Source of the DNA: Hericium rajendrae
Taxonomy: Eukaryota > Basidiomycota > Agaricomycetes > Russulales > Hericiaceae
Direction of reading: 5' to 3'
DNA: 64,000 nt
Assembly (NCBI GenBank): GCA_033439255.1
Contig: CM065884.1
Span: 2,232,001-2,296,000 of the forward strand
The notes below the pieces were generated by a model. The model saw only the letters and a list, made by a program, of their open reading frames with translations, did no database searches and was not told the origin of the DNA. The position numbers and the translations under genes were made by a program. The stretch's first letter is position 1. The number at the start of each line of letters is the position of its first letter. Of this stretch, positions 12,429 through 64,000 are shown piece after piece.

Positions 12429-14776
12429 ATGTCCTCGCACTGGCTACAACAACGTGGTCCTGATTGACTGGTTCCTGCATGGCCTAAACAGCGCCCTGCA
12501 GGATGATTGCCAGCGCAGCTACCCCATGCCCACCATGCTGGTCGAGTGGAAGGAAAGGGCCCATGACAGGAATGCTGCTTACCTCATGCATACCCAGTTC
12601 CAGAGTCCCCGCCCTGTGACTGGGCACACCTCAGTGAGCACTCACTCCCCTCAGTCCACATCTACTGGCTGATCCCGCACAGTTGCTGCCATGGGTGCCC
12701 AACTGCCCAAACTCTCAGAGTCTGACCGCGAGCACCTCAGACATGAGGGCGGTTGCTTCCGCTGCTGCCAGAAGGGCCATGGCTTTTGCGACTGCCCCCT
12801 CAATGCCGACTCCAACCCCCGTGCCCCAATCTAGAAACCAGCTCTGCCCCAGCAGTAGCTCTAGAAGATGCAGCTGCTGCCCTCACTGTCCCCGCTATCA
12901 ACAGGTCTATTGCTGACTTATCATCGCAGTTGAAGGACTTGAGCGAGGAAGAGAGGGAAGAGGTGAAGGCTGCATTGAAGGACATGGTTGAGGGTTTTTA
13001 AAGTGCCCCCCAGTCACGTCGTCCGTGGGTGGCAAGAAACATTTCTTTGATCTGTCGAATCGCTTCTTTGTACTATCTGACCCCTGTGAGCAATCATATC
13101 CATCATCTTTGTGCATGTCCGCTATCACGCCCAACCGTCAGACATCGTCCATTACACTCCAGGCCAAGATTATCACTGCCCCGATCAAGAAACAAATCGA
13201 CGCTGAGGCACTTCTCGATAGTGGTGCAGAAGGCATCATTATGCACCCTGACTTTGCCAAGAAACACCAGTTCCCCCTCAAGAAACTTCCTAAACCCTTT
13301 TCTGTTTGCAACGTGGACAACTCCAAAAACATCATGGGGTCTGCTATTCAGTCAACCAGAACATCTGCATTTACGCCAAGGACTTGACGTCCTTCCATGA
13401 GGAGACAGCTGAGTTCTATCTTGTTGACATTGGCAACTATGACATTATCCTTGGGACCGATTGGTTACAGGAGCACAACCCTGAAATTGATTGGGTCTCT
13501 CATCATGTTGACATGACTCGCTGCCCCCCCTCTTGCACTCTGAATAAACCCCCGGTCAAGAACCTGTCCACTCGCACTGAACGCCGCCAGTCAGCCCCTC
13601 GTCCATCAGTCCTCAGTGCTGCTGCTGTACTGCTCCCCCCACCTTGCCCTCCTCCATTTCTCCCACTGCCCCTGCCATTTGTCGCTGCTCCACTTCCCAA
13701 ATACATGATCCCCGCTCACCGAGTCCAAGGTGTCTGCCTTCGCCACATCCACCTGTCCAAAGTTCCTGCATGTCTATTCACTGAGGATGATGACCCACGA
13801 CCTAACGTCAATGACGACTGGGTCGAAGAGGGCCTTCGCCTAGCTGGTGTTCTTCCTGACTGGGACACACCACCCCCACCAGACAATAACTCTGACTACC
13901 AACACACTATCTGTATCCATCGCTCTTTCACCAATTCTCAGAAACTGGCTGAGCATGTGGCCACTCGTGTTGCCGAGAAGTCCTTTGCTGAGATGGTTTC
14001 CCCTCAGTATCAGGATTTCCAACCTGTCTTCGACAAGGAATCCTCCCATTGCCTCCCCGAATGTCACCCTTGGGATCATGCCATTGACCTGAAAGATGGT
14101 TTTGAACCCCACTCCTACAAGGTCTATCCCACGGCTCCTACTGAGCAGAAGGACCTCAATTCATTCCTTGATGACCAGGTCAAGAAAGGCTACATCCGTC
14201 CTTCTAAATCCCCTATGACAAGTCCCTTCTTCTTTATCAAGAAAAAAGATGGAAAACTACGCCCTGTCTAGGACTATCATATGCTCAACACATCTGAGAA
14301 ATTTACCACTGGTATATAAGGCTATGTAAGCTATATAGCTTTCCTAGGTCCATAGCTGTCCTCTTTTCTACATAGCAGTCTCATAGCAGTCAAGTAATCT
14401 ATGCATAGCTATCATAGCTTACCATAGCTATCATAGCATAGAGTCTAAGCTATATAGCTGCTATAGCATAGAGTATAAGATATTATAGCTGTCATAGCTA
14501 TTATAGTATAAAATAGCTATAGAAGCTATACCAACTCTATACTATATCATTATTGTTATATTATATCTAGCTAGTAAGATTTATATCTACTCTATATTAC
14601 TTATGTTAAATATATTGTTTTAGCATGTGAAAAAAATTAATAGCTCAATAATTTTATTTATCTTAATCACAAATATTAAAAGTTCAAAATCATTATATTT
14701 TTTCATATAATCACATTACAAAACATTACTAAAGCTACAACAATGACTATATAACTACAAAAGATAACAAACTTAC

Positions 14777-14884
14777 AGTAACAACAAAAAAACGAAAATA
14801 TAAATAAGCAAAAGAAGACATTAGTATTAGAAGATAGCCAAAATAAAGCATAAGAACTCACCAAACTAACAAAAAAGCGAAAAC
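14777..14884 (-). other. Reverse micro-exon pair of HE-1
   Basis: On the minus strand, 14884-14862 is GTTTTCGCTTTTTTGT plus 7 bases, preceded by AG and followed by GTGAGT. 14799-14777 is the related ATTTTCGTTTTTTTGT plus 7 bases, followed by GTAAGT, but its upstream acceptor is no longer AG. Both are 23 bases. They match micro-exons at 25861, 25947, 63545 and 63629. Confidence 0.6.
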
Positions 14885-15169
14885 CTATAAGACAACTTGA
14901 AGATATCAGTATAAGACATGATAAACCTTACCTAGTGCAACTACAATAATACTATAATCAGTATCAAGACATTAGTAGTTATAAGATAACTAAGAGTAGA
15001 GGCTTACCTTAGACAATAGAAAGAACAACAACGAAGAGTGAGCAAGTAACGATGATGAGCAATGAAAGGACGACAACGAGCGAGCAAACAACGATGAGCA
15101 AGCAAACAATGACGAGTGAGCGAGCAACGATGACAGGTGTCGACGTGGCAAGGGATGGTGGGGGTTAAA

Positions 15170-15590
15170 GAGCAAGAGGTAACGCGCATTGTGCAGGCCT
15201 TATATACGAATCCCAGGTGGAGCCGGGATTTGTGTGTGCCGAGTGTTTGCCGAGCGTCACCTCAGAGACTGGGCACCAGACTTTACTATGTTGATGCTGT
15301 TGCTCAGAGATTCACAGTCCCGTAGATACATATTATTCTCATGTATTCTAATCTAGTGTACAATTCATCACTGTGATCCTTTTCTCCGATTTTATATAAA
15401 TTTGTTTGATTTGCTGAGGCTCGAGCAATGGGACTTCGCTCGTTCGGTGGCTGAAGCACCGAAGCGCGTTGAAGTTCAACTCGTCCCATCACCACTCCCC
15501 TCCTTCCTCTCCTCTCCTCTTCCCTCATCTCTCTCTCTCGTCAAAATGAAGGCCGAAGGAGGGCAATAAGAAGTTGAGGACCCATTAGGT
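15170..15590. promoter_or_regulatory. Divergent leader module of HE-1
   Basis: Minus-side TATATAAGG (15198-15206) drives toward the micro-exons. On the plus side, GGTGGCTGAAGCACCGAA is followed by a long CT tract and a donor (TTAG|GTGAGT, 15589). Leaders at 25.4 kb and 63.0 kb (reverse) share the GTGGCTG word, the CT tract and a donor at similar spacing. Transcription is inferred. Confidence 0.5.
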
Positions 15591-15631
15591 GAGTAAAAAA
15601 AAGTTTTGTTGTATTCTATTCGTGCTAACGT

Positions 15632-15663
15632 GGAGAGTATCGCTTGAACGAGCGATACTCTCC
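15632..15663 (+). repeat. Hairpin H1 after a splice donor
   Basis: A near-perfect palindrome: ggagagtatcgct, 6 central bases, agcgatactctcc. It starts 43 bases after the GTGAGT donor at 15589 and 2 bases after a branch-like GTGCTAACG. Confidence 0.75.
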
Positions 15664-16317
15664 ACTTACTTCTTTTCCCCTCGCGTCCTCTCCCTCCCCC
15701 TCACCTCCTGCCGCCATCTCCTGCTCATCGACCCACCCCTCCAACATCGCCGTCAAGCTCCAGGGGCTGGCCTGCTGTCTCTAATGACTGCATGTGCTGG
15801 TGCACGCACACCACCGACAACATGTATGTGTGGCCACCGCCCCACGCACGGGCTTCACCCCTCCTGCACGGCCCCGCTGTCCCGCGAACGGCACTGGTGC
15901 CTGGCACACAGGCCAGACACGCAGTGTGCAGCCACCTCGTCTTGCGCAGGGGCCGATGTGTTGCACGCGACCCCGCCGAGGTCTGTACGCACGGCCAGCA
16001 GATGGCCACAGCCGTGCGTGGATGCCCGCCTGCACGATATGCATGCGATCGGGGGTGGGAACATGAGCAGCATGACGTGGGACGGGCGTGCATGCGTGCA
16101 CGTCGCGCGTGGCCGTGTGCAGGCGTGCCTCAGCCCGACCTACGCACCTCGCGTCCCACGCTGCCCTCCCGCATGTGGCCAGTGCACCTCATGCGGAGGC
16201 TTGCCGTGTCATGCATGGGCTTGCAGCGGTGCAACGACTCACACATGCCCTCCATGCCTCGTATGCCCCCCCTCGCATCTTGTGTGCCCCCCCTTCGCGT
16301 GCTCCCCCACCACTAAA
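15664..16317. other. GC-rich body of HE-1
   Basis: GC-rich, Cys/Pro/His-coding in every frame on both strands, with no start, domain or intron pattern favouring one frame. I treat it as non-coding. Confidence 0.5.
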
Positions 16318-23083: not shown

Positions 23084-24199
23084 TCATTTAGTCAACCTTG
23101 AGGAGCCAGAGGGCTGCGTAGCACTGACAACATTTATTGCAGTTAGCAGAGGAAGATAGATAGTAAAGGCAACATACCTTTTTTGCTTTCCAGACTCTCC
23201 TGCCGTGGCAGCCTTCCACCCCCGGAGGGCCGCCAAAGCTTCCGTCACCTGAGACACTGCATCCTGCCAGTCCTTCATTTGTCGTGAAGATGAACCTCCC
23301 GGTTTGAAAATTTGAGCACCCCAGAATGACAAGCTGACCATAATCAGCACGAGTCCACAGCTTGAGGTCACATCCATACAGGCCCAGTCCAGACCTGCCA
23401 CCAACAGGCCTGGCCTGCCATTCGCATCCATACTACGCTCTTCAGGCTGACAAAGCCCCCACCAAGCCCACCATTTGACTGAATAGGCGACAAGGTCTGT
23501 GACCTCCCGATCTTTAGGGAGCCTCTTGTATTGGATCCAGGTCGTTACCAGCTCCGGCCGCTCAGTTGACGAGAACTCGCCGACTTTGCGTCTCGTCTTT
23601 GTGTCCACCTTCAGCAACCGTAAGCGATGCAAAATCATCATTAAACAACATAAACTCACCTGGAACTGATCCATATGCTGCACCTCGACCCACTCGTGAA
23701 CACATGTGGTCCATCCCGCACCCCACTCCTTGCCGCCAGTCAATAGGCCGTACAGCTCCTGCATTTTCTCTGGCCAGCATCAGGGAAATGGGATTTCTAC
23801 ATAGCTCAGTGTCAGGTTATGTGGTCTATCATAGGGCTATATGGTCTACATAATCCCCTCCTCACCTATATAGAGCTATGATGACTATCATAGTTTCCAT
23901 AGCAGTGCTCACAAGATATATAGCACTATATAATCATGGGAGATAGCTATGGTTACTACATAACCTCATAGGCATGCTATGGGAGGTATATGTCCTATGG
24001 CCACTCAGGTAGACACTAGAAGCATTAAGGTCAAATATTCTATATTGCAGATCGGAAGCTACATGCAGTACTAGCTACAGGGCACAGGCATGGGATATGC
24101 CTCTATTGTGGTGCCAAACGTGCAGTCCTAGGCATGCGCGTTGTCGGGGCGGCACATGGGACGTCATGGGCGAGGCATGGGGTCGTTGGAGCTGTTGCA

Positions 24200-24610
24200 C
24201 AGGGCGTGCAGGTCGTACGCGAGGCGTGCAGGTCGTACGCGAGGCGCGCAGGTCGTACGCGAGGCACGCAGGTCGTGCGCGAGGTGCGGGGACTGCGCGG
24301 GAGGCACTGGGGCCATGCGCAGGTGTCGTGCGCAGGCTTCTCAGGCCGTGCGCGGGCTGCGGGTGCCGTTCGCGAGCTGCGGGTGTTGTGTCCGGGCTGC
24401 GGGCATTCTGCTGGGCTGCAGACGTTGCGCGCGGCTGCAGGGGGCCGTTCGCGGGCTGCAGGCCTCGTGTCCGAGCTGCGACGTCGTGCACGGGCTGCAG
24501 ACGTCGTGCGCGGGCTGGAGACGTCGTGCACGGGCTGCAGACATGGCGCGCGGGCTGCAGACGTGGCGCGCGGGCTGCAGACGTGGCGCGCGGGCTGGTG
24601 GGCTTGTTTG
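24200..24610 (+). repeat. GC-rich tandem repeats of HE-2 body
   Basis: A 20-base unit (gcaggtcgtacgcgaggcgt-like) repeats about five times near 24204-24290. A roughly 21-base unit (cgggctgcagacgtsgcgcg-like) repeats near 24470-24600. The long open frames here on both strands are products of the repeat. Confidence 0.7.
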
Positions 24611-24910
24611 CGGGCGACGGGCATCATGTCCGGGCTGCAGGTGCTGCTCGCGGGCTGCCGGTGTCGTTCACGCACCTCGCTCGTGTGCTGGATGTTGCAG
24701 GCACGCGCGCGTGCGTGGGCTGGCTCGGCAGCCCGCGGGATACGGCCGCGCGGGGTCGTCGACGAACCGGTGCTCAACGTGCACGGGCGCGCCGTGGTAC
24801 GGAGCGCGGAGTGGCGTTGAGCGGGCGCGGGGCGTTCTACGCACGAGCGGGGGCGACGCAGGGTGGGCGAGATGCGAGCGCGGGCAGCTGAACCGCTGCC
24901 TGTTGGTGCC

Positions 24911-24924
24911 ATTGCCACGGCAAC
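24911..24924. promoter_or_regulatory. RFX X-box-like palindrome in HE-2
   Basis: ATTGCCACGGCAAC, one base from the GTTGCCAYGGCAAC pattern at 50839 and 62713. It lies between the GC body and the hairpin, as in HE-3 and HE-4. Confidence 0.5.
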
Positions 24925-25203
24925 GGGTCCACCGCGGCGCCGTATGCTGGCACGCCCGTGCGCAGATGGACCCGTGCGTGCGTGCGTGCGTGCGTGCGCT
25001 GGCGCAGCCATGCTGGCCCCGCGCGCGGGCAGTCGGGAGGCGTGCGCGTGCGTAGTCGGGGGCCGCGCGCACGGGCAAGCACGGTGCATCAGAGGCGGTG
25101 GTTCGTCGGCGGCGCGGGTAGTGCAAGCGGATGGGCGCGGAGGGTGCGCGAGAGTGGGGCGGCGGAGTGTCGGATAGGGAAGGGTGCGAGCAAACGAGAA
25201 AAC

Positions 25204-25235
25204 GAGAGTGCCACTCGTCGATGAGTGGCACTCTC
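25204..25235 (-). repeat. Hairpin H2 after a reverse splice donor
   Basis: gagagtgccactcgt / cgatgagtggcactctc palindrome. On the minus strand it begins about 37 bases after a CAG|GTGAGT donor (25277-25272), with GTACTGAT upstream of it as a branch-like site. Confidence 0.75.
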
Positions 25236-25269
25236 GATATCAGTACATTACACACGAGATATATATATA

Positions 25270-25800
25270 TTACTCACCTGTTCCCCTGGACCCTCGAGCC
25301 CCCATCGGATACTAGAATCCTTCAAGTTGATGAGAAACGACAGAAGACGAGATGGGGGAGGAGACAGCAAAGAAAGGGAGTGGGCAAGGAGAGACGAGAG
25401 ACGAACGACGTGACTTCAAGTTCGTTGCTCCAGCCACCAAACGCGCGAAGTTAAGATCGACACGGCACAACAAACCAAATAAAATCGTATAATTTACGGG
25501 AAAAAACAATCAGCTGTAGATTAGCGAGAAGAATATATTCTATGAGCATTACTTCTAGCTACTCTACTGTAAACTACCGGGCTGCACAGACAGTGTATTG
25601 AAGTCTGCCGCCTAGCCCTCTGTCGCGGCGCCCGGCAGTGCCCGGCCCGGACATATTTGTGGCTCCGCTGGCAATCTTATTTAAGGCTCGCGCGCGCGCG
25701 CGCGTCGTCTCTCTCTCTCTTACCACCACCATCTTCTCCTTCTTCGAACTCTCGACTCTAACTTTACCTCGGGCTCTTGATCCTATTACTTGTGGTAAGT
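25270..25800. promoter_or_regulatory. Divergent leader module of HE-2
   Basis: Minus side: TTTGGTGGCTGGAGCAACGAA, a CT-rich tract, then donor at 25277. Centre: GCGCCCGGCAGTGCCCGGCC near 25630. Plus side: TTATTTAAGG at about 25677, an alternating CG run, a TC repeat, then a donor GTG|GTAAGT near 25796. Promoter function is inferred from the TATA-like box and donors on both sides. Confidence 0.5.
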
Positions 25801-50857: not shown

Positions 50858-53800
50858 TCGACTAAGTGTCGTACAATGTGTGCTCTCACCTCGCCTCACC
50901 TCGCACCTCTACCTTACACTCGTGCATGTCTATGACAACAGGTATGTAATGAGTGCACTTTATCATTTCTATAAATTGACTGATCGTCTCTTTTTCTATA
51001 ATAAACATGCTACGGGGCCTCCACAATGGCCACGTCATGCACATGATAGCAGTAAGTGCCCTGTCATAGTGTGTACGACTTTGTGAGGAGCTCACGCGTG
51101 TCTGCAAAGCTACGCACACCTTGTGTCTGTGTGCTTGTAGGTTTGTGGTATATTTCTACTTGATAAGATGTACTCTAATCTGCATCCCTTGGTCTCTCTT
51201 TTAATGACGTGGACTCATTTTCGGGGGCAGGCTTATCTTGGCTCATTCATGCTAACACATCTGTGTCCTGCAGCTTTGTGCCATACCCTATAGCACTATG
51301 TATGTATTCAGCTACCTGACTGTGTGCAGGAAGCTCTTGCATTTCTGGTGTGCCTGTATTAGTTTATTTGTATTTGAAACCTTGCTAGCTTTCCTCATTT
51401 TGAGGTTGATCTAGTCTGATATATTTGGACTACGATCTGATCTGATATTTGTGGTCTGATTTATGCCTGATTAAGATCTGACTTCAGAATGTAAACTGAT
51501 GTTCCAATGTTGACTGAATAATAAGCTTGTCTGAGTGTCTGACTAAACTGATTTCAGATACTGTATCTGAAAGCAGTGAAATCAGACTAAAATTAGGACT
51601 GTTCTGATGCTTCAGATAAAGTTCTGACATCAGACCAAGTCTGACTCTCAGACCAGAAGTCTGATATTAGACTTTGATATCTGATGTTAGACATGCTCTG
51701 ATTTCAGACATTGTCTGATATTAGACTTCTGATCTGAGAGTCAGACTTTATCCTGATGTCAGACTTTTAGTCTGAGAGTCAGATACTTGTCTGAAGTCAG
51801 ATAATTTTTTCTGATATGGTCTGATGATGTCTGGACAATAGACACCCGTAGGAATGTCTGACTATTTGACAACTCAAATTTAGGCAAAATCAGGCAAAAT
51901 CAGATACATTTCAGGCAAATTTCAGACAAGTCAGACAATTTGAGGTTTACTGATGAACTTATGCAGCTGGAAGGAAGAGGCTTGGCAGGAGACGGCGATG
52001 CCTTGGGCATGTCACAAAGTGACAGCGCGTGTCATTCATGCGAGGTCGAGGCTGCTGAGTTTCGTTGCCGGGAGTGCCATGGGGCAGCTCTGGTCTGCAA
52101 ACGCTGTCTGAAAGTGGCGCATGGTGCAGTCCCGCTCCACATGGTCGAGGTACGCCTGTTGTTTCCCTTCTGCTGCATCATTATCACTAATATGCCGTAG
52201 AAATGGATCGGCAATCGGTTTGAGCCCATCTCACTGCGCGAAATTGGCCTCAGGGTGCAAATCGGTCATGCCGCTGGTGGCCTCTGCCCGTCCCGTGTTC
52301 TAGGCCGCATCGACTTTGTCATTCTTCATACCAATGGAATACACTGCATCGCAGTAGACTTCTGTGGTTGCTCGTCAAGCTTGTCGCACTGTGCTCAACT
52401 CCTTCGTGCCTCATGGTGGCCAGCCACGCTGCTTCAACCCCAAACCTGCACCACAATGTCCCTCCTTCGACAATTCCACGCCTTGAATCTTCAAGGCAAG
52501 CTATCAGCATATGATTGCTACAAGGTGTTAGAGCTGCAAACCAATGGAGCAGGCCTTCAGAAGCTACCGGTGAGAATACATTCTGGTTGCACTGCTAGCT
52601 TCCTGGTGCTGACAGTCTCTCCTTCTGTAGGATCGACTGCCAATGTTTATGTTGATGATTCATGAGTGGTGTTTTACCAAGCTGCTGAAGCGTGCTGGTA
52701 GGGGTTTGGATCCCACTGGGATTCAGGGCACGAAGCCGGGTGAGCTGGCTGTGAAATGTCCTGCTTGCCTGCAGCCTGGGGTGAACCTGCCGTCAAACTG
52801 GATGGATGCGCCTGCTGAAAAGCGTATGTCTGCCATCAAGGTGCTTCTGACTCTGGCTGATACTTCTTAGGTTTCTCTACTGGTTAGTGCTAGCTATGGA
52901 CACCAATTTTTGCTTGAAGAGTCGCCTTTGCACCAGCGAGGACTTGGACCCACCGCTGGGCAGTGGCTTCACATACTTTGTAGAGAGCAAGGCCTATGGG
53001 AAGTACGTCATAGAGCATACAAGCGAAGAGGAGGTACATCCGCGAGGCATCGTTCTTATTCCATTCTTACACATTGCCTCTATATAGATCAGTACTTGCA
53101 TCTCTTTCACTGCACTGGCTACAGCAAGCCTGAAACAAACAAAGGGCCTGGCATCAACTGGCATTGGTGCAGTAACCTGTGGCCGCCACCAGTTCTGGAG
53201 GGCAAATGGCCTCGGCGACCTACAGAAAGGGGAATGGTTCGTCGTACCAGCAGCCTTCTCCTGTCTGCTGTCTGACTCCTATATAGTTATCTTAACATGG
53301 ACTACATTTTTCTGTCCACATTGGCAGGCAAGATCGTCAAGACCCTCGTGTCTTCTTATGACCTCGCGTGCCAGTGGGAGAAGAAATTCTGGCTGCGCGT
53401 TGACGATTTCCCCAGCGATATGCAGGAGTCACTCACTGATGCAGAAGTCATCTTCCTTGTCCCCGAGTTCCATCTTCAAGCCCACAAGGAAAAGTGTCAC
53501 AGTCTGTATTCCTCTCGTCGGACTGTTGGGATGGGGCGCTCAGAACTGGAGGGCCCTGAGAGAAATTGGGCTTGGCTCAATGGTGCAGCAGCTAGTACTA
53601 AGGAGATGGGTCCTGGGTCACGCCGAGATACCCTGGATGATTTCTGTGGCTTCGCAAACTGGAGGTGAGTAGTTGACATGGGTGCGTGGCCATTACAGCT
53701 CTGTAATGGCTGTTTGCTAACCTCCATTGTTAGGCTCTGCTCTTCTTCGAAAGATGCTCCTTGCCATCCCCAATGCGATCAGTTTTTACCATGCATTTGA

Positions 53801-54489
53801 TGACATGGAGGATGGCCTCCGCGAAAAGCGCCCGGAACAGGTTGAGGCCTGGGAGATCATGTTCGCTGCCTGGAACGAGGATAAGAAGCACAACCCCAGC
53901 CCATTCACTGTGCCTCGTGCAAGTCAGTACCTGTCCTGTGCATTGAGGAGTACATTGCTGATCTGTTTGATGCAGAAAAGACACTGACAGAGATAAGGCA
54001 GGAGCTGAAGGAGGAGGAGCATGCTGCACTCATCAGGGAAATTGGAATTCTACATAGCCCAGTGTTGGGTTATGTGTCCTATCAGAGTGCTATGAGGTCT
54101 ACGTAGCTACCCTTCTTAGCTATGTAGGGCTATGAGACCTATCATAGCTTCCATAGCAGTAAGTGGAAGCTATATAGTGCTATATACTTTTGAGGGGCAG
54201 ATATGATTGCTATATAAACTTGTCAGCTTGCTATGGTCCCTATAGCTCCTATGGCCCTTACATTTAGTGAGCTAGACTCCATAATCATCCAGTCAAAATT
54301 TTCATATTGCACACTCGAAAGCATGGCAAAAATTATATACTTATTAACTCCTACTAAATGACATTGTAGCTACAACACAGAAGTAAATACACTAGTGAAT
54401 GCTATATGTGCATGAGGCCCATGGACTCTGCACAGCACGGCACAGCCATGCGCAAGGCGAGGCGGCTGTGCACACGCGCGCAGTCAACC

Positions 54490-54612
54490 CTGTAGTCATT
54501 TACCTAAATGTACAGTACTAGCCACCTGACATAAACCTAAATGCCCAGTAAGGCATCACTGACAGCTTATCGGACATAAAGCTAAATGCACACATTTATA
54601 TAAATGTACGGT
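54490..54612 (+). repeat. CATTTAGCTAAATG-type block, left arm
   Basis: CATTTACCTAAATGTACAGT and CATAAACCTAAATGCCCAGT words. The reverse complement is found at 61945-62068. Also like 16318-16442. Confidence 0.7.
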
Positions 54613-55859
54613 AAGTTACAGACATGCTAGCGAGACATGTACTGTGCTACTCCCTGGCCCACCTGCTGCACCTGCCATTTCACATGCCCGCCACGCACGA
54701 CGCCTCCGCTGTGTGCACCCTCCCTGGCCCGTGCGTACCGTACCTGCTGCACCTGTACTGCACTGCCCGCCCACTACTCACGCTATGCTCAGCGCCGGTC
54801 GCGTGCCCATGGTGAGCCTGTGCTCCCGCTGCGCGCCACGCGCCGGGGGCGCGTCAGCACTACCACTCCTCCCGCCCTCGCAGCACCTACCGCGCCAACA
54901 GTGACACCCAGTGCCCTGCCCTCGCTACTTCTGCCGTTCACACTGTGGTCACTCTCTGATGCTATGAGCCCGCCGCGCACATGCGCCCCGCATTCTACGT
55001 GCCTGGCACCCCCGCGACGTGCCATCATCCCGTCGATTCGGGCATACCTATGCTCTGCCTGACCCAACCTATTGCGGGCATGCTTCCTTGCACACACACC
55101 TCCGCTGTTACCCTGCACATGCGTCTGTGGGACGCAAGCTCCCCGCCGCCTTAGAACAACTAACGGTCTTACGCGCTGTTCAGTTGCTGCCGCACGCTAC
55201 TAATCCGTCACGCCCGCCGCTCAACAAGCGCACCGTCAACGTACCTGGCCTTGCCATGCGGCACACACGACCCGACCCCGAGCCCACCGGTGCACCCTCG
55301 CCGCCGCTAGGACAGGCCTCTGACCGCGCGCTCCACAGCACCCTCCCCACCCCGTCGCGCACTCCTCTCCACCACTGCTGCAGCTCCCCGCCAACCACAT
55401 GCTGCGCATGCTACGCATTGACACAGCAGGAAACTGACACTGCCACGCTCAGTCAACTGCTGGGCCTTGGTGAGGCCCAACCGGAAGACTTCACACGACA
55501 TATGCAGCCCTGCCCGACGTGCCCGCCCACCTCTCTGCCTCGTGATGCCATGTACCTCATGCGCGCGCCATTCAAGCACGCGTCATCCCTCCCATCCCCC
55601 ACGCCCTTCGTCCCCATCGTTGGCACCCTATTCGTCGTTGGCCACACCTACGGCGCGCGTATCGTGCATGACTGTGCGCTGGCACGACGCGGCATGGACG
55701 CGGATGCAGGGTGGGGTGTGCTGTCAGGCACACAGCTGTGTTGCACGGCTTGTATGCACTGCCGACGTACCATACTCCATGCAGCGAAGGTGTTGGTGTG
55801 CTGGTATTGTGCGTTGGATCACTGGTGATGCACTGGCACTTGACACCAGTCCCAGCTAT
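54613..55859. other. GC-rich body, first block of HE-4
   Basis: A plus-strand frame of 269 codons (55019-55828) is open and has some Cys pairs near its end (CTACMHCRR), but its composition follows the GC bias, all frames are open, and I recognise no family. I do not call it a gene. Confidence 0.4.
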
Positions 55860-55980
55860 GAAATTATATTATGTACCAGCAAATTGCCTGAAGTGTATTA
55901 CAAAAAACCCGGCAGTTGCTGCCCGGGGCCTTTCCATGCACATTATAATTCTCCCACATTATAATCTAGCTCGGGGCCGC
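55860..55980 (+). repeat. Inverted repeat arm with CATTATAAT, left
   Basis: TGTATTACAAAAAACCCGGC and GCCCGGGGCCTTTCCATGCA, then two CATTATAAT words. The reverse complement lies at 59590-59712. Confidence 0.75.
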
Positions 55981-57180
55981 TTACCGGGCCGTACGCTACT
56001 CACTGCCGCGCGCTTAGCGCGCCTACTCGATCGGCCTCGCTCGGCACCGTGCCCGCCCTGCGCGCTCCCTGCCTCGGCTATGCGCGCGCCGCCTCCCGCC
56101 CCGCCCGCCCTCGGCTACGTGCCCGCTGTCGCTCCCCCCGCCGCCGCCGCCGTCGCTCCCCGCCGCCGCCGCCGCCACCGTCGCTCCCCCCGCCGCCGCC
56201 GCCGCTGGCTCCCCGCTGCCGCCGCCGGCTCCCCGCCGCTGCCGCTGGCTCCCCGCCGCCGCCGCTGGCTCCCGCCGCCACCGCTGGCTCCCCGCCGCCG
56301 CCGCTGGCTCCCCGCTGCCACCGCTGGCTCCCCGCCCCCGCTGCTCACTCCCCGCCCCCGCCGCCGCCGCTCAGCTCCCGCCCCCGCCGCCGCCGCTCAG
56401 CTCCCCCCCGCCGCCGCCGCTCAGCTCCCGCCCCCGCCGCTCGTTCCCAGCCGCCGCCGCCGCTTGCTCCACGGCACCGTTGCCGCGACGCACGCCATCA
56501 ACGCCGCAGGCGTTGCTGCCGTCGTCGTTGCTGCGTTGCTGGCGTGGTGCTATGCCCACGCACGGCCGTCCGGACCCGTGCGCCGTTGCTGCGCACCCAC
56601 ACCGTCATTGGGGGACTCCGCGCGGGCGTGGAGATCTCGCGCGGGCACTGGCGTTCGGCACGGGTGCTCGGGGCCACGAGTGGGGGAGCGGAAGTGGGCA
56701 GCGCGCCGTTGCTGCGCTGTGCGTGCCGGTGCCGGGGCTGCGCGTCGCGTCGGAACCCGTCGCGAATATCGAGCGACGGTCGCGGGTGTTGAAGGCCGCG
56801 GGAGCGCGATGCGCGACGCCTATGGACCGCGCGCACGCGGGCCGGGTGCCGTTGTGTGGTGGGTGCTGGCGCCGCGCACGGGCAAGCGCGGGTGCTGGGC
56901 ACGTGTCCGCGTCGTTGTACGTGGCTGCGTACGCGTCTGGGTGCGTGTTGTGCGCGTTTCTGCGCGTGTCCGACGTGTATGGAGGTGGGCGAACGGCTGC
57001 AGTGGGCCGTGGAGGGCGTGGTCGAGAGGCGCGGAGCGCGGCCAGCGCGCGGTTGGCGTGCGAGATGAGGAGGGCGAGTGGAAGCGAGGCGAGGCGCACG
57101 AAAGGCGGGGAGATGCGCGTGAGCGCGAAGAGGGAGGAGGGCGAGCGGGACAGGGAGATGTTACTGCAGAGAGGGAGAGG
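55981..57180. other. GC-rich body, CCG-tandem block
   Basis: Tandem CCGCCGCCGCTGGCTCCCCG-type units at 56120-56470 translate to Pro/Ala/Arg in all frames. The 504-codon open frame across this block is a product of composition and is not called. Confidence 0.5.
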
Positions 57181-57189
57181 ACGAGCCGT

Positions 57190-58155
57190 GACGCGGTTCG
57201 GCAATCGCCGAACGTCGGTGGCTGAAGGCCGAGATGACCGATGTTCGAGGGCAGGTGTGTGTGCGCGCACGAGTTTGGGGCCATTATGGCCAGATCTTGA
57301 GGTGTGGATGCATAGCTACTGTAGTAGATAACGTATGTACGAAATCTCGCACAAATATGAACACGTTTCGAGCCAGAACGACAGAATTATACTAACCCTA
57401 CTGTAACCCTACATGGTATCTCTTGAGGTGCAGGCTTTATCACCGAGAACGATACTCATTTCGCTCAGCGAAACATTTATATACTTAGCATACAATGTAT
57501 TCACAAAGTCTTAATTTTTTTGGACTCGAAATTCGAGCTTGAGATCCGAAATACGTCTAAAAACACAGTGCATGGAGCGAAAAATCATGTATTAGACTAG
57601 ATCCTAGAGATACAGCCACCCAGAAATTACAATAAAGTCGTAGTATGTTCCTAATATATACTAAAATGTATTGAAAAGAACCGATACGATGTGCGAGGGG
57701 TACATGCTGCACAATTGCAGCTCAAATCTGGTGCCCGGCGTGCCCGAGACGTCGAATCGAGCTCGACGCGTCCGGCATCATTGACAAGCGCCGTCCATTT
57801 TAGACGTGCTTATCTGTCCTTCCCACACAGTACGTCTTCAGTCGATCTGATTCCTCTGAAACTTCGCATTTCTACCATTATACTAGAGATACAGATACTG
57901 TATTATTTATATATTTTAATAGAATTGTTTGGCCTTGAAAATTATCTTCGAAGTCGGCCAGCCTCGTTCGGTACCCTGTTCGGCAATGGCCGAACCGTGC
58001 CACAAGGCTCGTGGTTGAGCCTCTCCTCTTCCTCCTCCTCCTCCCATCAAGCGGGGACAATGTAGGGCTCAATAGCCCACAAACTCGTAAGTGTTTCAAT
58101 TCTTTCTCGTATTCGCTCGGTTTGCTAACGAAATCTTCCTATTCTAGCCCGCCAA
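57190..58155. promoter_or_regulatory. Divergent leader module in HE-4 (first)
   Basis: Left-facing GTTCGGCGATTGCCGAAC (reverse, near 57200) with a CT tract; centre GGTGCCCGGCGTGCCCGAG near 57735; right-facing GTTCGGCAATGGCCGAACC (57980), a CT tract (58022-58050), then a normal-looking intron GTAAGTG...GCTAACG...TTCTAG (58090-58147) with no hairpin. The ordinary intron here shows what the hairpin units may derive from. Confidence 0.45.
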
Positions 58156-59589
58156 CGCGCTGACGTGGCACCGCACGCAGCCAGAACCACACCCGCCCCC
58201 GTCCGCACATCCCCCTCCCCCGCGCTCGTAAACGCGCGTCCGGCGTCGCCTGCACATTCGCGCACTCGCACGATGCGACGTACCACCACCCGACAACGCC
58301 GCACGCGCCCTAGCAACCGTGCGTTCGCGCCAGGGCCTCCATCTCGACCACCATCTCCCTCGCGCTTGCAAATGCGTGCCTGACACCTCCCAGCTGTGTA
58401 AAAGGCAACTCACCGGTACGCAAGGCCCCGCGCTCGCAAATGCGCATCATCAAGGCCTCTCGGAGTCGTGCGGAACGACTCCCGCGGACACCCCCACCCC
58501 CACTCCCCCTGCCCCACGCGCATGCGCACACGCGTTTGCGTTCGCGCCAGGCCACTCCCACTCCCATGCGCACAGGCCCGGAATCGACACGCACGGACCA
58601 GCAGCAACGACACGCGGGCGCAAACACCGCGTACACCATCAAGACATCCTCCCCGCATGCGCCCCACTCCCTCCCGCACGTACACCATGGTGTTGCGTGC
58701 TGGGGGCATCAGCACCGTGGCCGCGCGCTCCAGCATCTCGCCCGCGCTCCAGCACCCCTCCCGCGCACCCGTACCCCGCCCGCGTGCGTCTCAAGCCGTC
58801 CCTGCGCGTCCCAATTCCATGCCCCATGCGTCCCAGCGCCGTCCCGGCTCCAGCACCTTGCCCGTGAGCACCCACGCTCTAGTGGCGAGCCCGCGCGGGC
58901 CAGTGCCGTGCGCGCGTCCCAATTCCGCGCCCGCGCTCTGCAGTGTCCGCACCTGCGCCCTCCAGGCCCGCGCTTAGCCCCGAGCCCGCGCATCCAGCCC
59001 CATACCCGCGCATCCAGTGCCGCGCCCGCCGTCCCAGACCCGCGCCCGCCGTCGCAGGCCCGCGCCGGCACCTAGCACCCCACCCCGATCCTCCCGCGTA
59101 TACCTCGCTCGCCCAGCCGCGCGTACGGGAGCCATCGGCGGTGCGCGGCTGATATGCGGCCAGTGTGGTGATTGGTGCGTGCGGAGCGGAACGAGCGCCT
59201 GCGCCGACCGGACCGCGGCGCATACGCTCTACAGCGGGCGTGCGGCGAACAGCGCGTGCAATGCGCGTGCAGTGCGTGCGTGGCGGCGGGGCGGGAGCGG
59301 GCGAGGGTGCAGGGCGGGGCGGTAGGCGGCGGCGAGCGGGAAGGGAAGCGCCGGCGAGCGGGGGAGGAAGCGCTGGCGAGCGCGCAGGTAAGCGCCAGCG
59401 AGCGAGAGGGAAGCGCCGGCGAGCGCGCGCAGAGGCCGGTGCGCAGGAGCGTCGGCAAGCCATAGCCGAGCGATGAGCGCATCCCGAGTGGTAGTGTCGG
59501 CAGCCGAGATCCTTACGATCTCGGCTGATATGTTTTTTTATGCAATATCATATATTTTTCGTGGCCCCTGGGCTATCCCAGGTGCCGCT
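58156..59589. other. GC-rich body, third block of HE-4
   Basis: C-rich on the plus strand to about 59100, then G-rich to 59470 (AGCGCCGGCGAGCG-type tandem). Open frames on both strands are low-complexity. No gene recognised. Confidence 0.45.
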
Positions 59590-59712
59590 GCGCCGCATTA
59601 TAATGTGGCTTAAGTGGATTGGATTATAATGTGCACGGTAAGGCCCCGGGCAGCAACTGCCGGGGTTTTTGTAATACAGTTTCGGCAAGTTGCCGAATAT
59701 AATGTATTTCAG
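59590..59712 (-). repeat. Inverted repeat arm with CATTATAAT, right
   Basis: Reverse complement of 55860-55980 with few differences: GCCCCGGGCAGCAACTGCCG and TTTTTGTAATACA in order. Here TTCGGCAAGTTGCCGAA stands where the left arm has a decayed AAATTGCCTGAA. Confidence 0.75.
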
Positions 59713-60079
59713 TGACTGGGACACCTCCGCTTGAGCGATCCCGTGGCAACCGTGGTGCTGACGTATGTCGGTGTCGACGTGGTATCTTGGCACGCAGGAG
59801 GTGGTGGGGACATGCTGGCACACGACGGGGTGGTGCATACACATGGCACATGCTGTTGGAGCTCGCCTGGTGTTGGCGCAAGCACGTCGTGTGTGACGTG
59901 TCAGTCGGGTGGGAGCTTTCGAGCTCGGGAGACTTGAGGCCGCAAGAGGAAGTCCGAAGGGGTGGAGGGATTGGTGAACGGAGACAAGAAGGCGCCCCGG
60001 GAGGCGAGACGGTGGATGGGGAGGACATGGGAGGAGGATGGGGGAAGCAGGAGGCAGGAGGCAGGACGAAGAAAGTGAT

Positions 60080-60900
60080 TCGAACGGGCTTGTGGCGTTG
60101 TTCGGCAATTGCCGAACGACGCCTCGGGCTCGTCGAACGAAGCCCGTTTGAGGACAAGTAAATCGAACTAAATTTCATAAATAATCTATGACACTACGAT
60201 GGAAGATATAAAGTAGTTATGAAAGTTTTGTAGATATCGAATGTGGTGGAGGCAAGCTATGAGCGAAGCAATAACAAGCACGTACAGAATGTACGGCGCT
60301 TGTCCTTAGTGCTGAACGCACGAGCTCGAACAGTGCACCTCGGGCGTGCCGGGCACCACTTTCGAGCTGCGAATCTGCAACAGATCATCCCCTCTATATA
60401 TATCGGACGACATAAACACTTGCAGAAATGTTTTCTTAGTGTAATACTATTTTATTGGATTTCTTTGCACTCACGAATAATGGAGATCTCGGCCATCTTT
60501 GTGTTTTTGTGCACAGAAGGGCATACTTTTGGGCTTATCCCGGCTCTCAGGGACTTGATTCATGCCAGAAAATTCTTAAACTTAGCAAATGCATGTATCA
60601 TAGTCATAAGAATAAGTTTATCTTACTATATTCAAGACATGTGGGTGGTTGAGGACTCTATTGTGCAAAAATCGAGTGGGATCCTCTGCTTCGATAGTAT
60701 ATTTGTCATTCTGGCTCTAATGTTTCATTTGAGCATCCGAGATTTGGTATATACATTGTAGACTACTAATGTACGCATTGCCTATGAAATTACATCTCAA
60801 AGCTCTTCGTAACCCTCCCCCGGTCCTCCTTCTCCTCGAGTTTCGGGCTGCTCGGGCTCAGCCACCGCGCCTCGGCAATTGCCAAGATGCCTTTCTGGGC
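60080..60900. promoter_or_regulatory. Divergent leader module in HE-4 (second)
   Basis: Left-facing GTTCGGCAATTGCCGAAC at 60097-60114; centre CGGGCGTGCCGGGCACCA near 60340, which is the reverse complement of the centre at 57735; right-facing CCTCGGCAATTGCC at about 60869. The two centres also share a GACAAGCGCCGT block (inverted). Confidence 0.45.
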
Positions 60901-61944
60901 ATGTTCAACCAGAGATCCCATCCTCGTTCCTCTTTCCAGCATGTTGCGCTCACTCCCGATGGCACGACCAGTAGCCCTCACCCGCATCCATCACGTGCAC
61001 GCAGGGCCTCCAGCGCACATCTCAGGCCTCTCGCGTGCTACCTCAGCACGCCACGCGTGTCGCCAAGACCTCGCCGCCCGCCCACTATACGCGAGCGAGC
61101 AAGCAAGCAGGCCACGGCAGTCGCCCAGCGATGACGACGTGACAATTCCAGCTGCGGAGATGACGAGCGTGCTGCGAGGTCCAGTTTGAGGAGGGTGGAG
61201 GAGTGGCGACGGCGGCGAGGGATGTGCTCCCTTGCAGGTACGTCCCACAGAGCTAGCACAGGCATGGTGAGCGGGGGTACGACGCGAGCACGGCGAGGGG
61301 CAGGCACGGGTCTGCACCTCTTTTAGGTACGGTTTATGTTTGTCACTCCGCGCCCCCACCCGCATCATGCGCATGCCCCACCCCACCTTGCTCGCGCTCC
61401 CGTGTGACCACCCATCGCATTAGCGGTCCACGAGCTGGCACAGCGAGCGGGCGGACACAGCGAGAGACATGCGCGGACGAGCAACGAACGTGCGCACACG
61501 GACGTGCAATGAGCGCGCATGCACAAGTCCGTAGTGAGCAGGTGCATGGACGGGCAGCGGGCGGTGGTGCTGCGAGGGACGCACACCAACGCGAACGAGC
61601 AGGCACACGGGGGTGCAGTGAAGGGGGGCATGCCCGCGTGGGTGGGTAGCGAGCGGTGGCGCACCAAGGGACGCACCGATGCAAACGAGCAGGCGTGCAT
61701 GGGGGCGCAGTGAGCGGGCAGGCACGGGCGTGCCAGCAGATGTAGCACGTCGGCCGGCAGCGAGCATGGGCGTGCAGTGGGCAGGTGGGTGCGGGGGCGC
61801 AGCGAGCAGGCACACGTGGGCACGCACGGGCGCTCAGCAAGCGGGGGCGGGCGGCGGGCGGGCAGTGGCGGCGGTGGCGGCGGCAAAATGCGCACACCTC
61901 CGAACCCAGAGGCAGCACTGAGAGGTGCCATAGATAAGATCAAT
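60901..61944. other. GC-rich body, fourth block of HE-4
   Basis: GC-rich with GCGAGCGGGC/GCACGGGCG words. Open frames are without a conserved pattern. No gene recognised. Confidence 0.4.
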
Positions 61945-62068
61945 CGAGTGCAGTATTTAGCTAAATGTACATATAGCTAAATGTCCAGTGACTTGCCTTT
62001 GGTGAGTTAATGGGCATTTAGGTTTATGTCGGGTGGCTACTACTGTACATTTAGTTAAATGGTTACAT
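61945..62068 (-). repeat. CATTTAGCTAAATG-type block, right arm
   Basis: Inverted copy of 54490-54612. The best run, read on the minus strand, is CTAAATGTACAGTAGTAGCC followed by ACCCGACATAAACC. Confidence 0.7.
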
Positions 62069-62704
62069 CTAGTGGTGACGCGCGAAATGCGAGGGCCGTG
62101 AGCGGCACAGCAAAGCTCCGCACGCGTCGCGAGGGCTATGTCAGGACAGCAGGATCACGCGGAGTCGGTGGGGGTACGTGCGAGGTGCGCAGTCAGCCGG
62201 GCCACGCACGAGTTGTGCGTGACGTGCGTGCGACAGCGGGACCATGCATGCGATGGTGGGGTCGCGCGCGCGATGATAGGGGCATGTACGCGGTGATGGG
62301 GTCACAAGCGTGGCCATGGGTGTGTACATGGGTGCCTTTGGGCACTCGAGGGTGTGCGTGCGCACGGGCATGCCTGTCGGGGGTCATCCGAGGCCGTATG
62401 CGCGCAGCCGGAGGCAGGCGCGGGCATGCACACGCGCAGGCGCAGGCGGAGTGCCGGAACCCATGGGCAGGCAGGTGGAGGCGGAGAGGTGGGCAGGCAG
62501 GCAGAGGTGGAGGCGGAGAGGTGGGCAGGCAGGCAGAGGCGGAGGCATGAGCAGGCAGGCGGAGGCACAGTCGCGGGCTTGCCTGTGCTGTCAACGCTGT
62601 GCGCTGAAGCATTGTTGGCAGCCCAGGGCTATGCATGCGCTGTGGGGCCATGCGCAGGCATGCACGGACTGCTGGGGCCATCACGCATGTCGCGTTGCAC
62701 TTGC
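62069..62704. other. GC-rich body, fifth block of HE-4
   Basis: A GCAGGCAGGCAGAGGYGGAG-type tandem near 62460-62570. No gene recognised. Confidence 0.45.
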
Positions 62705-62736
62705 TCGAGCCTCGTTGCCATGGCAACGAGGCTCGA
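62705..62736. promoter_or_regulatory. RFX X-box palindrome in HE-4
   Basis: A perfect 32-base palindrome with the core GTTGCCATGGCAAC (62713 on), the classic inverted X-box. Same relative place as in HE-2 and HE-3. Confidence 0.55.
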
Positions 62737-62850
62737 TGAGGTGGGCGGCATTGAGTCGGTGGCGTTGTCGGGGAGATGTGATAGCGGGCGTGGCGGGGTC
62801 GTAGTCGAGGGGAGTGGGGCGGTGTGGGGTACGAAGATACAAATGCGCAA

Positions 62851-62878
62851 GTATCGCTCGTGTAAACGAGCGATACTC
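62851..62878 (-). repeat. Hairpin H10 after a reverse donor
   Basis: agtatcgctcg...cgagcgatact palindrome. Minus-strand donor TAG|GTAAGT at 62921, branch-like GTACTAAC just before the hairpin. Confidence 0.75.
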
Positions 62879-62919
62879 GCTTTGTTAGTACGAAAAGACA
62901 AAGAATATTGTAATTACTT

Positions 62920-63480
62920 ACCTAACATGACCCTCCCCGCATCTACTAGCCCACCGGAGTGTCGAACGACGCCTTGCGTCGTGTGTTGACTCTTGAGCGA
63001 GGTTGAGTGAAGGAAGGCGAGAGTGGAGAGAGGAAAGTGAGGAAGTCGTGCCGAAGTCCCTCAGCCACAGAGCACTTGACGCGAGCCCAGCTTTCTTCGA
63101 CATCAGAAAGTCAAATAAAATCGTGATAAATCCAGAAAAAAGGGAGCTTCTACATATTATTCGTAAGACCAGAATCAATGAGCTAACTAGATATCTAATG
63201 GACAGTACGCTCGCGACCCGAGAAGTCAACTTAACCAAGTCTAATTCCTAGCCTTTCTCGCGGCTGTCGGCAGCGCCCGGCAGCCACATTTGCGGCTCCG
63301 ACTGGGCACGTCTGGGCTTAGCCTTATAAGGCACGCGCGACGCGTCGTCTCTTTCCTCTCAACCATAACAATCTCTTCTGCCACGTCGTCATCTCTGCTC
63401 GTCGTTGTCTGCTCGTCATTGTCTGCTCGTCGTTGTTTGCTCGTCGTCATCTGCTTGTTGTTATCTCTGCTCGTCATTCT
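62920..63480. promoter_or_regulatory. Divergent leader module in HE-4 (third)
   Basis: Minus side: CTGTGGCTGAGGGACTTCGG, a CT tract, and a donor at 62921. Centre: GGCAGCGCCCGGCAGCC near 63270. Plus side: CCTTATAAGG (63322-63331), then a TCGTCGTTGTCTGC-type tandem (63380-63475). It parallels 25270-25800. Confidence 0.5.
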
Positions 63481-63544
63481 TAAGGTACAGTTGCTATTGT
63501 TTTCTTTCTTATTCTTATACTAATATTAAGTATTATCTTAATAG

Positions 63545-63652
63545 ATTTTCGCTTTTCTAATGCTTTGGTAAGTTCACCTTGTAGTCTTCGGTTGTTGTGT
63601 CACTCACTAGTATGTGTATACTTATTAGATTTTCGCTTTTTTGTTATTTAGG
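63545..63652 (+). other. Micro-exon pair of HE-4
   Basis: 63545-63567 (ATTTTCGCTTTTCTAATGCTTTG, 23 bases) and 63629-63652 (ATTTTCGCTTTTTTGT + 8, 24 bases). Both are preceded by AG and followed by GTAAGT. Confidence 0.6.
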
Positions 63653-63899
63653 GTAAGTTTGTTTGTGATCTTTTGTATTGATTTTAGCTAATGCTTATCT
63701 TTTTGTAGTGTTTGTATATAAAATTTCATAGCTTTATGTAATGTTTATTAGTTCTATTATGTTGTAGTTAAATAGAGTAAATAAATGAAATTATGTTTTG
63801 ATCAATAATGTGATTGACTTTAGGCTATTGATGTGATCTTTTATTAAATATATAGAATTCTGTTTGTTATATAATTGTAGATTGAATAGTATAAATAGA

Positions 63900-64000
63900 G
63901 TCTATTGCTTGTATAGATGTGTCAAGTCTACCTTGTAAATATAGCTTACATCAATGATATAGCTTTCATAGCTTCTATAGCTATGTATCTTATTATAGCT
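63900..64000. repeat. TAGCTAT subterminal repeats of HE-4
   Basis: atagctttcatagcttctatagctatg-type words like those at 26160-26460 in HE-2. The right terminus lies beyond the window. Confidence 0.55.

Follow-up and report, generated by a model that had tools for sequence, protein, structure and literature searches.

Probable non-coding PlavakaB-type transposons of Hericium rajendrae carry a recurrent cassette of splice signals and a hairpin

MITEs and other non-autonomous DNA transposons have inverted ends and target-site duplications (TSDs), encode no protein and occur in many copies, and non-autonomous transposons are usually seen as little more than a pair of ends around an empty interior. 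PlavakaB elements, which belong to the CMCT clade, have CATCA..TGATG ends and a 2- or 3-bp TSD (Kojima 2025, PMC12730594, section 3.2), while Kyakuja (KDZ) elements are given a 7-bp TSD and CA..TG ends without terminal inverted repeats (TIRs) in the same paper. On the side of splicing, PMC12350175 reports that 21 of 88 introns of S. cerevisiae have downstream stems, placed past the branch site and ahead of the 3' splice site; it is proposed that they reduce the effective distance, and they were observed to occlude cryptic 3' splice sites.

We analysed a window of 64,000 nucleotides of Hericium rajendrae (contig CM065884.1, positions 2,232,001 to 2,296,000, forward strand). The window holds four related copies, A to D, of the elements that we call HE, which measure 2.6–4.4 kb, and a fifth copy lies just beyond it (L038:~252-3036). 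The initial annotation had described four related elements with a common layout, and we find a divergent centre with a leader on one side in each of them, and a splice donor, a branch-like site and a hairpin on the hairpin side of all four. The micro-exons reported in three copies are likewise present, two of about 23 nt each in A, B and D. Other details of that description stood in part: the RFX-like palindrome was found in B, C and D, and the GCCCGG words lie at the centre of B, C and D, but A and the fifth copy have related GCCGAG or CCCGGCA words (by reading); the CTAAY branch site reads CTGAT in B; and A starts at 14291, not 14312. Two small MITE-like elements with related ends (11888-12118 and 12219-12431) lie in the same window.

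Element A (its right end was looked for and not found):
14291..16307, right limit approximate, unstranded: left part of element A, left end CATCTGAGAAATTTACC at 14291
14777..14799, minus: micro-exon 2, 23 nt
14862..14884, minus: micro-exon 1, 23 nt, between a TAG acceptor and a GTGAGT donor
15198..15209, minus: TATA-like box, micro-exon side
15589..15594, plus: splice donor GTGAGT, 46 nt ahead of the hairpin
15625..15629, plus: branch site CTAAC
15635..15660, plus: hairpin

Element B:
23778..26480, unstranded: complete element, 2703 bp, TSD AG, ends CATCAGGGAAAT...ATTTCCCTGATG
24912..24923, unstranded: RFX-like palindrome TTGCCACGGCAA
25206..25233, minus: hairpin
25239..25243, minus: branch site, CTGAT variant
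25272..25277, minus: splice donor GTGAGT
25628..25687, unstranded: divergent centre, GCCCGG words at 25628-25650, TATA-like TTATTTAAGGC at 25677-25687
25861..25883, plus: micro-exon 1, 23 nt
25947..25969, plus: micro-exon 2, 23 nt

Element C:
47514..51955, unstranded: complete element, 4442 bp, TSD AA, subterminal arrays of TCAGA words
48908..49819, minus: overall span of the left-side hairpins
48908-48935, 49345-49371, 49463-49490, 49662-49690, 49792-49819, minus: left-side hairpins
48977, 49532, 49730, 49860, minus: left-side donor-like words
50016..50036, unstranded: divergent centre, word cluster
50169..50380, plus: right side, span of donors, branch sites and hairpins
50169, 50307, plus: right-side donors
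50201, 50345, plus: right-side branch sites
50211-50236, 50353-50380, plus: right-side hairpins
50838..50853, unstranded: RFX-like palindrome

Element D:
54031..64000 plus 176 bases past the window (to L038:176), unstranded: element D, TSD CT
54491..62067, ends approximate, unstranded: nested inverted-repeat element, not D proper
55849..59722, unstranded: second nested inverted-repeat element, inside the former
62713..62728, unstranded: RFX-like palindrome
62850..62877, minus: hairpin
62916..62923, minus: splice donor AGGTAAGT
63273..63332, unstranded: divergent centre, GCGCCCGGCAGCC at 63273-63285, TATA-like CCTTATAAGGC at 63322-63332
63545..63567, plus: micro-exon 1, partly by reading
63629..63652, plus: micro-exon 2, 24 nt as split

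Element A has 74.5% identity with a complete copy at L071:3905-5022. Its surroundings are, by reading, a degraded, gypsy-like stretch with a weak RVP_2 match below cut-off. Element B has a near-identical copy, L010, at C12:1948122-1950841 (98.6%, TSD GA). Seven hairpins lie in element C, five to one side of the centre and two to the other, and a search for the micro-exon word found none in it. By reading, C is inserted in a KDZ transposase gene (KDZ match at 52884-53659) and D sits in the same gene. D does not hold up as the single large element of the initial annotation, since its great length is mainly due to other elements that appear to be nested inside it. One inverted repeat (54491-54605 / 61955-62067, 78%) bounds the outer and another (55849-55949 / 59623-59722, 84%) the inner of these, which we read as insertions; the inner one has a GC-rich left part with many genome matches, and D without them comes to about 2.6 kb.

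The layout had been thought to fit no transposon class. This view has to be given up, because the ends and the 2-bp duplications match PlavakaB and the ends of C match those of a Plavaka-bearing element. B, C, D and their relatives terminate CATCAG...CTGATG, with the CATCA..TGATG termini present on B, C, D, L010-L019 and L037. The A-type left end reads CATCTG, and the CATCT.. ends of A (left end) and of the L071 copy agree with PlavakaB in part. A 2-bp TSD was found in 17 of the 17 elements tested, a set made up of 15 HE-type elements (B, C, D, L037, the L071 copy and L010-L019) and the two MITE-like elements of the window, and leaving out A, whose right end was not found, and the fifth copy in L038, which showed no clear duplication. 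The terminal sequence CATCAGGGAAAT occurs at 34+37 genome places (control, 0). With the TSD obligatory and flanks of 1.5 kb, TIR and TSD were found together at 9 of 30 hairpin-selected loci against 0 of 30 in the control, a fraction that counts against the assignment. Element C shares its ends with the transposase-bearing element E11 (C11:1982301-1993400), over 664 aligned columns at the left (86%) and 355 at the right (81%), and a Plavaka transposase match lies inside E11.

Plavaka transposases have many matches in this genome, and none of those listed falls within A–D. An autonomous PlavakaB element was rejected on this ground and on the lack of a coding signal in the B-type body: the HE elements are non-autonomous. 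Among the Plavaka loci read, a minority of all, none proved to be a transposase-bearing copy with ends of the A/B/D type (none at L069 and L070). Outside that set, such an end and a Plavaka match stand 3-7 kb apart at three candidate places, C12:1497992, C12:1962669 and C7:2348282. L071 / C12:1935797 was rejected as an A/B/D-type transposase partner, the insertions there being nested. Element C was also considered as a deletion derivative of a Plavaka-bearing element on C9 and rejected, as the Plavaka element is there nested inside a C-type copy; the idea had come from a search table, and the sequence then told otherwise. Kyakuja membership was rejected, since the elements have short TIRs and no 7 bases are common to the two flanks. 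MITEs are under about 0.8 kb, a size that HE elements exceed, and membership was rejected here too. Some HE elements moved recently: L012-L016 show 0-2 differences over 1483-1490 aligned bases (gaps uncounted) at five sites, each with its own TSD.

The absence of a recognisable protein, noted from the start, is supported for the B-type body. Gap lengths in the B-type body are spread over the three phases (44/35/32 for 1, 0 and 2 modulo 3), B-type copies show no consistent codon-phase substitution bias, and the long open reading frames 24103-25089 and 55019-55828 have no Pfam match at E up to 0.01. A protein-coding body was therefore rejected. No Rfam family reached the gathering threshold in the window.

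The hairpin pattern occurs at 361 genome places and, just 3' of a CTAAY branch site, at 316, against 0 in either control, and the layout is genome-wide. The 100 hairpins listed represent 70 distinct sequences, of which 56 are fully Watson-Crick at the four unconstrained positions, against a mean of 21.9 and a maximum of 33 over 2000 shuffles. Among these 70, the gap from CTAAY to the stem is 5 nt in 57, 3 nt in 11 and 4 nt in 2. The stem has 12 bp or more and starts 3-5 nt past the branch site and 43-50 nt past the donor. At sites picked by hairpin and CTAAY, a splice donor lies 30-60 nt upstream in 27 of 28, compared with none of the 28 in any of nine control windows. The first 100 nt of the tract that follows hold 32 AG vs 114 GA (41 modules, some closely related), while at 300-400 nt the same modules have 117 AG vs 138 GA; the first AG comes at a median of 108 nt, as opposed to 26 in mononucleotide shuffles. 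The order of donor, branch site, stem and AG-depleted tract is that of an intron with a downstream stem, and AG depletion and compensated stems are kept among modules less than 80% similar. Ahead of the first AG stands C in 19 modules, G in 9, T in 7 and A in 6; this spread does not fix the 3' splice site and counts against the reading. The idea that the end of exon 1 pairs specifically with the downstream tract was rejected (own vs cross, p=0.13).

These hairpins could instead be DNA palindromes, which together with the RFX-like word and the centre would bind a transcription factor or a transposase or form a cruciform, the splice signals being incidental. We regard this as unlikely. Compensated changes with 8 G.U against 7 A.C among the imperfect pairs suit a DNA palindrome, as do the RFX-like palindromes (up to 2 mismatches), present downstream at 7 of the 28 sites vs 2 upstream, with 0 for four control palindromes. 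However, the arms are separated by spacers of 2 to 9 nt, where a dimer site would keep one spacing, and the position of the stem, 3-5 nt behind CTAAY, 43-50 nt behind GTRAGT and ahead of the AG-depleted tract, is a strand-specific splicing grammar. The suggestion of selection on RNA or structure is supported insofar as conservation resembles that grammar; the imperfect pairs, in which G.U does not exceed A.C and no RNA strand bias is seen, do not separate RNA-level from DNA-level selection.

A further alternative is that the hairpin stalls splicing on purpose, feeding RNA interference that limits copy number, or yields small RNAs from the intron. A stem beginning so close to the branch site would suit such a role, and PMC6643885 provides a precedent in Cryptococcus, where stalled spliceosomes can trigger siRNA production. 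Yet the consensus donor, the TACTAAC-like branch site and the pyrimidine tract with its scarcity of AG seem designed for efficient splicing. Short stems of such size are also poor Dicer substrates, and we consider stalling very improbable.

On the other side of the centre, the micro-exon word with its donor occurs at 274 genome places (control, 0); the micro-exons are mostly 22-28 nt long and share the core AUUUUCGCUUUUU. A back-to-back hairpin partner was found for 26 of 75 micro-exons, with 0 convergent and 2 same-strand pairs, where 0.79 pairs of any kind (maximum 5) are expected at random. Starting from the hairpins, the exact word lies upstream on the opposite strand at 7 of 28 sites (0, 0 and 0 in the other quadrants). 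Both counts support the fixed bidirectional layout. Counting against it, 49 of the 75 micro-exons have no listed back-to-back partner, and 18 of the 28 hairpin-selected sites have no micro-exon word with one mismatch allowed.

The signals had also been expected to decay more slowly than their surroundings. In 20-base windows among close B-type copies, the hairpin (0.91, 0.89) and the micro-exons (0.84-0.96) bear this out, but the branch site (0.81) and the donor (0.72) do no better than adjoining non-coding DNA, which mostly scores 0.7-0.9. In the GC-rich body, the part closest to the hairpin lies for the most part at 0.4-0.6 and climbs to 0.6-0.8 within 80 bases of it. Over short range, the test gives mild support and no more.

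Taken together, HE elements are probably non-autonomous transposons of the PlavakaB type, with CATC..GATG ends, a 2-bp TSD and short-word arrays in subterminal position; two spliced non-coding RNAs would be transcribed from their centre, one of them with a stem adjoining the branch point. Movement would presumably occur in trans, by Plavaka transposases. Judging from the signals in the DNA, the central divergent promoter would yield two non-coding transcripts. On the hairpin side, exon 1 would end AG|GTRAGT and be followed by the branch site CTAAY, the stem, some 100 nt rich in pyrimidines and depleted of AG, and then a likely 3' splice site; the stem may act as a downstream stem that masks its own AGs and shortens the path from branch to acceptor. 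On the other side, the micro-exons with the AUUUUCGCUUUUU core would be spliced between normal-looking introns. More speculatively, efficient splicing and an active mid-element promoter might allow escape from transcript-based silencing, or keep the ends accessible.

Could the cassette be merely what decay has left of the promoter and 5' part of a Plavaka element that once coded for protein, without present function and with a similarity that is only inherited? An autonomous ancestor is the usual origin of a non-autonomous element, and the C-type ends match a transposase-bearing element. But a strict search of E11, the E9-nested element, L069 and L070, a minority of the Plavaka loci, found no hairpin intron or micro-exon word in a Plavaka element, and AG depletion and compensated stems outlast the divergence of the modules, making a remnant rather improbable.

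Spliced non-coding transcripts remain our preferred reading. C-type elements, with their TCAGA arrays, have hairpin introns too, as does a further type (L044, L051, L060, L067 and L068) built around another palindromic centre. This raises the possibility, which we hold tentatively and at low weight, that selection acts on the cassette itself, as a pair of selfish non-coding RNA genes riding on transposons with different ends and acting by shaping how its transcripts meet the spliceosome and spliceosome-coupled silencing.

The transposon class is known; for the cassette of splice signals and hairpin, which recurs hundreds of times, a literature search of open-licence papers found no earlier description. 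More than 300 hairpin introns and more than 270 micro-exon words in one genome combine exact splicing geometry with no coding signal seen. This suggests that the way in which the RNA of a non-coding transposon is processed has been under selection, and it bears on how fungal silencing reads the splicing of transposon transcripts. HE elements share the CATCA..TGATG ends and 2-bp TSD with PlavakaB as described in PMC12730594, but no transposase was found in them, their interior is non-coding with a divergent splice cassette, and A-type ends read CATCTG. Like MITEs and other non-autonomous DNA transposons they have inverted ends, TSDs, no protein and a high copy number, whereas their 2.6–4.4 kb and their elaborate conserved interior set them apart from MITEs. 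The introner-like elements and repeated stwintrons of fungi (PMC8469720, PMC12403724) are also repeated introns spread genome-wide; there the intron is the spreading unit, while in HE it is part of a larger transposon. Finally, the downstream stems of S. cerevisiae occupy the same intron interval (PMC12350175), but in HE one stem design recurs more than 300 times, at near-fixed spacing, in mobile non-coding elements.

The window (C7:2232001-2296000) belongs to a genome of 46.8 Mb in 19 contigs. With exon pieces as the unit of counting, this genome has 172 KDZ matches from 150 scored candidates out of 223, and 132 Plavaka matches from 123 scored out of 166, a content that points to a basidiomycete. 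The window is itself a nest of transposons.

Features of the window
about 6.2-6.6, 35.2-35.6 and 52.9-53.7 kb: KDZ matches
about 10.3-14.3 kb: gypsy-like remnant, by reading (a weak protease match, nothing else)
16610-17079 and 21964-22433: 99% identical repeats of a copia element
23778-26480: element B, CATCAG start, CTGATG end, 2-bp duplication AG
47514-51955: element C, CATCAG start, CTGATG end, 2-bp duplication AA
from 54031, running 176 bases beyond the window's end: element D, CATCAG start, CTGATG end, 2-bp duplication CT

By reading, the gypsy-like remnant hosts element A, and the third KDZ gene hosts both C and D. The remnant also carries two MITE-like elements with 2-bp target-site duplications (TSDs), at 11888-12118 and 12219-12431; the second of these has an altered first letter. 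Within D are two inverted-repeat elements (54491-62067 and 55849-59722), the second nested in the first; a high GC content and CCG repeats mark the inner one, whose left part recurs across the genome in many 70–86% matches. A stretch after element A, just before the copia element (16308-16439), resembles the nested-element end in D (61955-62077).

We read these HE elements as non-autonomous transposons of the PlavakaB type that carry a conserved, non-coding splice cassette facing both ways. Section 3.2 of Kojima (PMC12730594) gives CATCA..TGATG ends and 2- or 3-bp duplications as marks of PlavakaB. Inverted ends with 2-bp duplications were present in all 17 elements tested: B, C, D, ten B-type loci (L010-L019), L037, the two small gypsy-remnant elements and the copy in L071, which has CATCTG ends and behaves like the B-type loci for ends and duplication. 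Outside this count stand element A, whose right end was searched for and not found, L020, which lacks the exact right end, and the fifth copy, just past the window (L038:~252-3036), with no exact match at its right end. A separate scan of 30 hairpin-selected loci, in which a duplication was obligatory and flanks spanned just 1.5 kb, recovered inverted ends plus duplication in 9, versus 0/30 for control ends. The word CATCAGGGAAAT occurs 71 times in the genome, compared with 0 for its reversed control, and forms 21 opposed pairs 2.58–2.96 kb apart among the matches listed.

Because, among the loci read, a transposase-bearing partner was found for C-type ends only, the assignment of C to PlavakaB is well supported, while A, B and D would belong there by their ends and duplications. 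The stretch E11 (C11:1982301-1993400), with Plavaka matches inside and a TA duplication, shares C-type ends (left, 664 columns at 86%; right, 355 at 81%). In E9, the copy on contig C9, a C-type HE element encloses a Plavaka-bearing element, and this nested element has the ends of the small window element at 11888-12118. Eleven hairpins, mostly ACGAGAACGAGCC..GGCTCGTTCTCGT, are listed inside that nested element (9042-10512 of E9, the reverse complement of L033+L034), possibly a repetitive coding region. No transposase-bearing partner for A/B/D-type ends was found among loci L069, L070 and L071; L071 was set aside, its A-type copy (3906-6806, TSD AA) being nested in a Plavaka gene. By reading, the hairpin of this copy is decayed in the inner part of one arm. 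At three further genome places an A/E-type left end lies 3–7 kb from a Plavaka match.

Movement has been recent in places. Five B-type copies (L012-L016) differ at 0–2 of 1483–1490 aligned bases, and each has separate flanks and a separate duplication; a copy 98.6% identical to element B lies elsewhere in the genome. All five near-identical copies share contig C12, which suggests either hopping over short distances or a burst in the very recent past.

The hairpin pattern GAGTNNNNCTCG-N(2-10)-CGAGNNNNACTC, which constrains the arms except for four free positions per arm, matches 361 genome places versus 0 for the control; with CTAAY 2–14 nt upstream, the counts are 316 (160+156) versus 0. The 100 hairpins listed of these 316 give 70 distinct sequences, and in 56 of them every free stem position forms a Watson-Crick pair; 2000 re-dealings gave 21.9 on average and never more than 33. 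Among the arm types are ATCG/CGAT, GTCG/CGAC, CTCG/CGAG, ACTG/CAGT, ACCA/TGGT and CTTG/CAAG, spacers between arms measure 2–9 nt, and CTAAY lies 5 nt from the stem in 57 of the 70, 3 nt in 11 and 4 nt in 2. Imperfect pairs are of G.U type in 8 cases and A.C type in 7, which counts against an RNA-only reading. Across 31 modules (hairpin-intron units) less than 80% similar, none of the 12 stem positions is paired, by Watson-Crick or wobble, in fewer than 30, the search having left just four of the 12 free.

The transposon ends, the spacing and two-way arrangement of the signals and the lack of coding signal in the body are all observed; from the surrounding signals we infer that the cassette is transcribed and spliced. 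GTRAGT lies 30–60 nt upstream of the hairpin in 27 of 28 unique sites (from 30 loci, picked by hairpin plus CTAAY), and nine windows of equal size placed elsewhere each give 0/28. The donor-to-stem distance is 43–50 nt in 38 modules picked for having a donor, and the exon before the donor ends in AG in 22/22 dissimilar modules. The ~100 nt past the stem are AG-poor (32 AG vs 114 GA over 41 modules, of which some are close relatives), compared with 117 AG and 138 GA at 300–400 nt, and the median position of the first AG is 108 nt versus 26 in mononucleotide shuffles. This scarcity looks like the AG exclusion zone of an intron whose 3' splice site lies far downstream; the base preceding the first AG varies (C 19, G 9, T 7, A 6).

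On the other side, the micro-exon word TTTTCGCTTTTT followed by GTRAG within 2–18 nt occurs 274 times in the genome versus 0 for the control, mostly as a 22–28-nt exon between AG and GTRAG in the cases inspected. A length of 23 nt is common, so a reading frame would not be kept. The two-way layout described in the initial annotation is real and extends beyond the window, as strand placement indicates: the word lies upstream on the opposite strand at 7/28 hairpin-selected sites and in the other three quadrants at 0, 0 and 0 (10/28 against 1, 0 and 0 with one mismatch). On C1-C4, from coordinates alone, 26 of 75 listed micro-exons have a back-to-back hairpin at 639–1010 bp among 96 of the 100 hairpins listed, with 0 convergent and 2 same-strand; random placement, with contig extents approximated, yields 0.79 pairs whatever their orientation, and 5 at most. 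The RFX-like palindrome lies downstream of 7/28 hairpins and upstream of 2/28 (four control palindromes, 0), TATA-like words occur on the micro-exon strand at 13/28 sites and on the other at 7/28, and CGGCA/CCCGG words peak 430–520 nt upstream of the stem in 26/38 modules.

Among seven B-type copies (21 non-independent pairs), differences in the GC-rich body do not favour any codon phase consistently, and gap lengths modulo 3 number 44, 35 and 32 for remainders 1, 0 and 2 (seven pairs 60–97% identical). We aligned B with seven relatives in 20-base windows. The hairpin (0.91 and 0.89), micro-exons (0.84–0.96) and right end (0.88–1.0) score high; the branch (0.81) and donor (0.72) are not above other non-coding stretches (mostly 0.7–0.9). 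The body adjoining the hairpin stays mostly at 0.4–0.6, climbing to 0.6–0.8 within 80 bases of it. At this short range, the decay comparison first proposed speaks only slightly in favour of persistence. Conservation is better supported at long range, by modules picked as dissimilar.

It seems rather unlikely that selection acts on the cassette as a unit of its own, and we keep this in play because the hairpin intron is also carried by a second type of element, built on a different palindromic centre. In L044, L051, L060, L067 and L068, at ~1150-1560, this different type has TTTGGCTGCAGCCAAA or nearly so at its centre and the same hairpin intron; L051 has an additional hairpin at 972.

Stems between branch site and acceptor are known in yeast, and PMC12350175 proposes that they shorten the path and reports downstream stems hiding false acceptors. 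Speculatively, the splice cassette may perhaps benefit its carrier by escape from silencing that senses poor splicing, of the kind described for Cryptococcus in PMC6643885.
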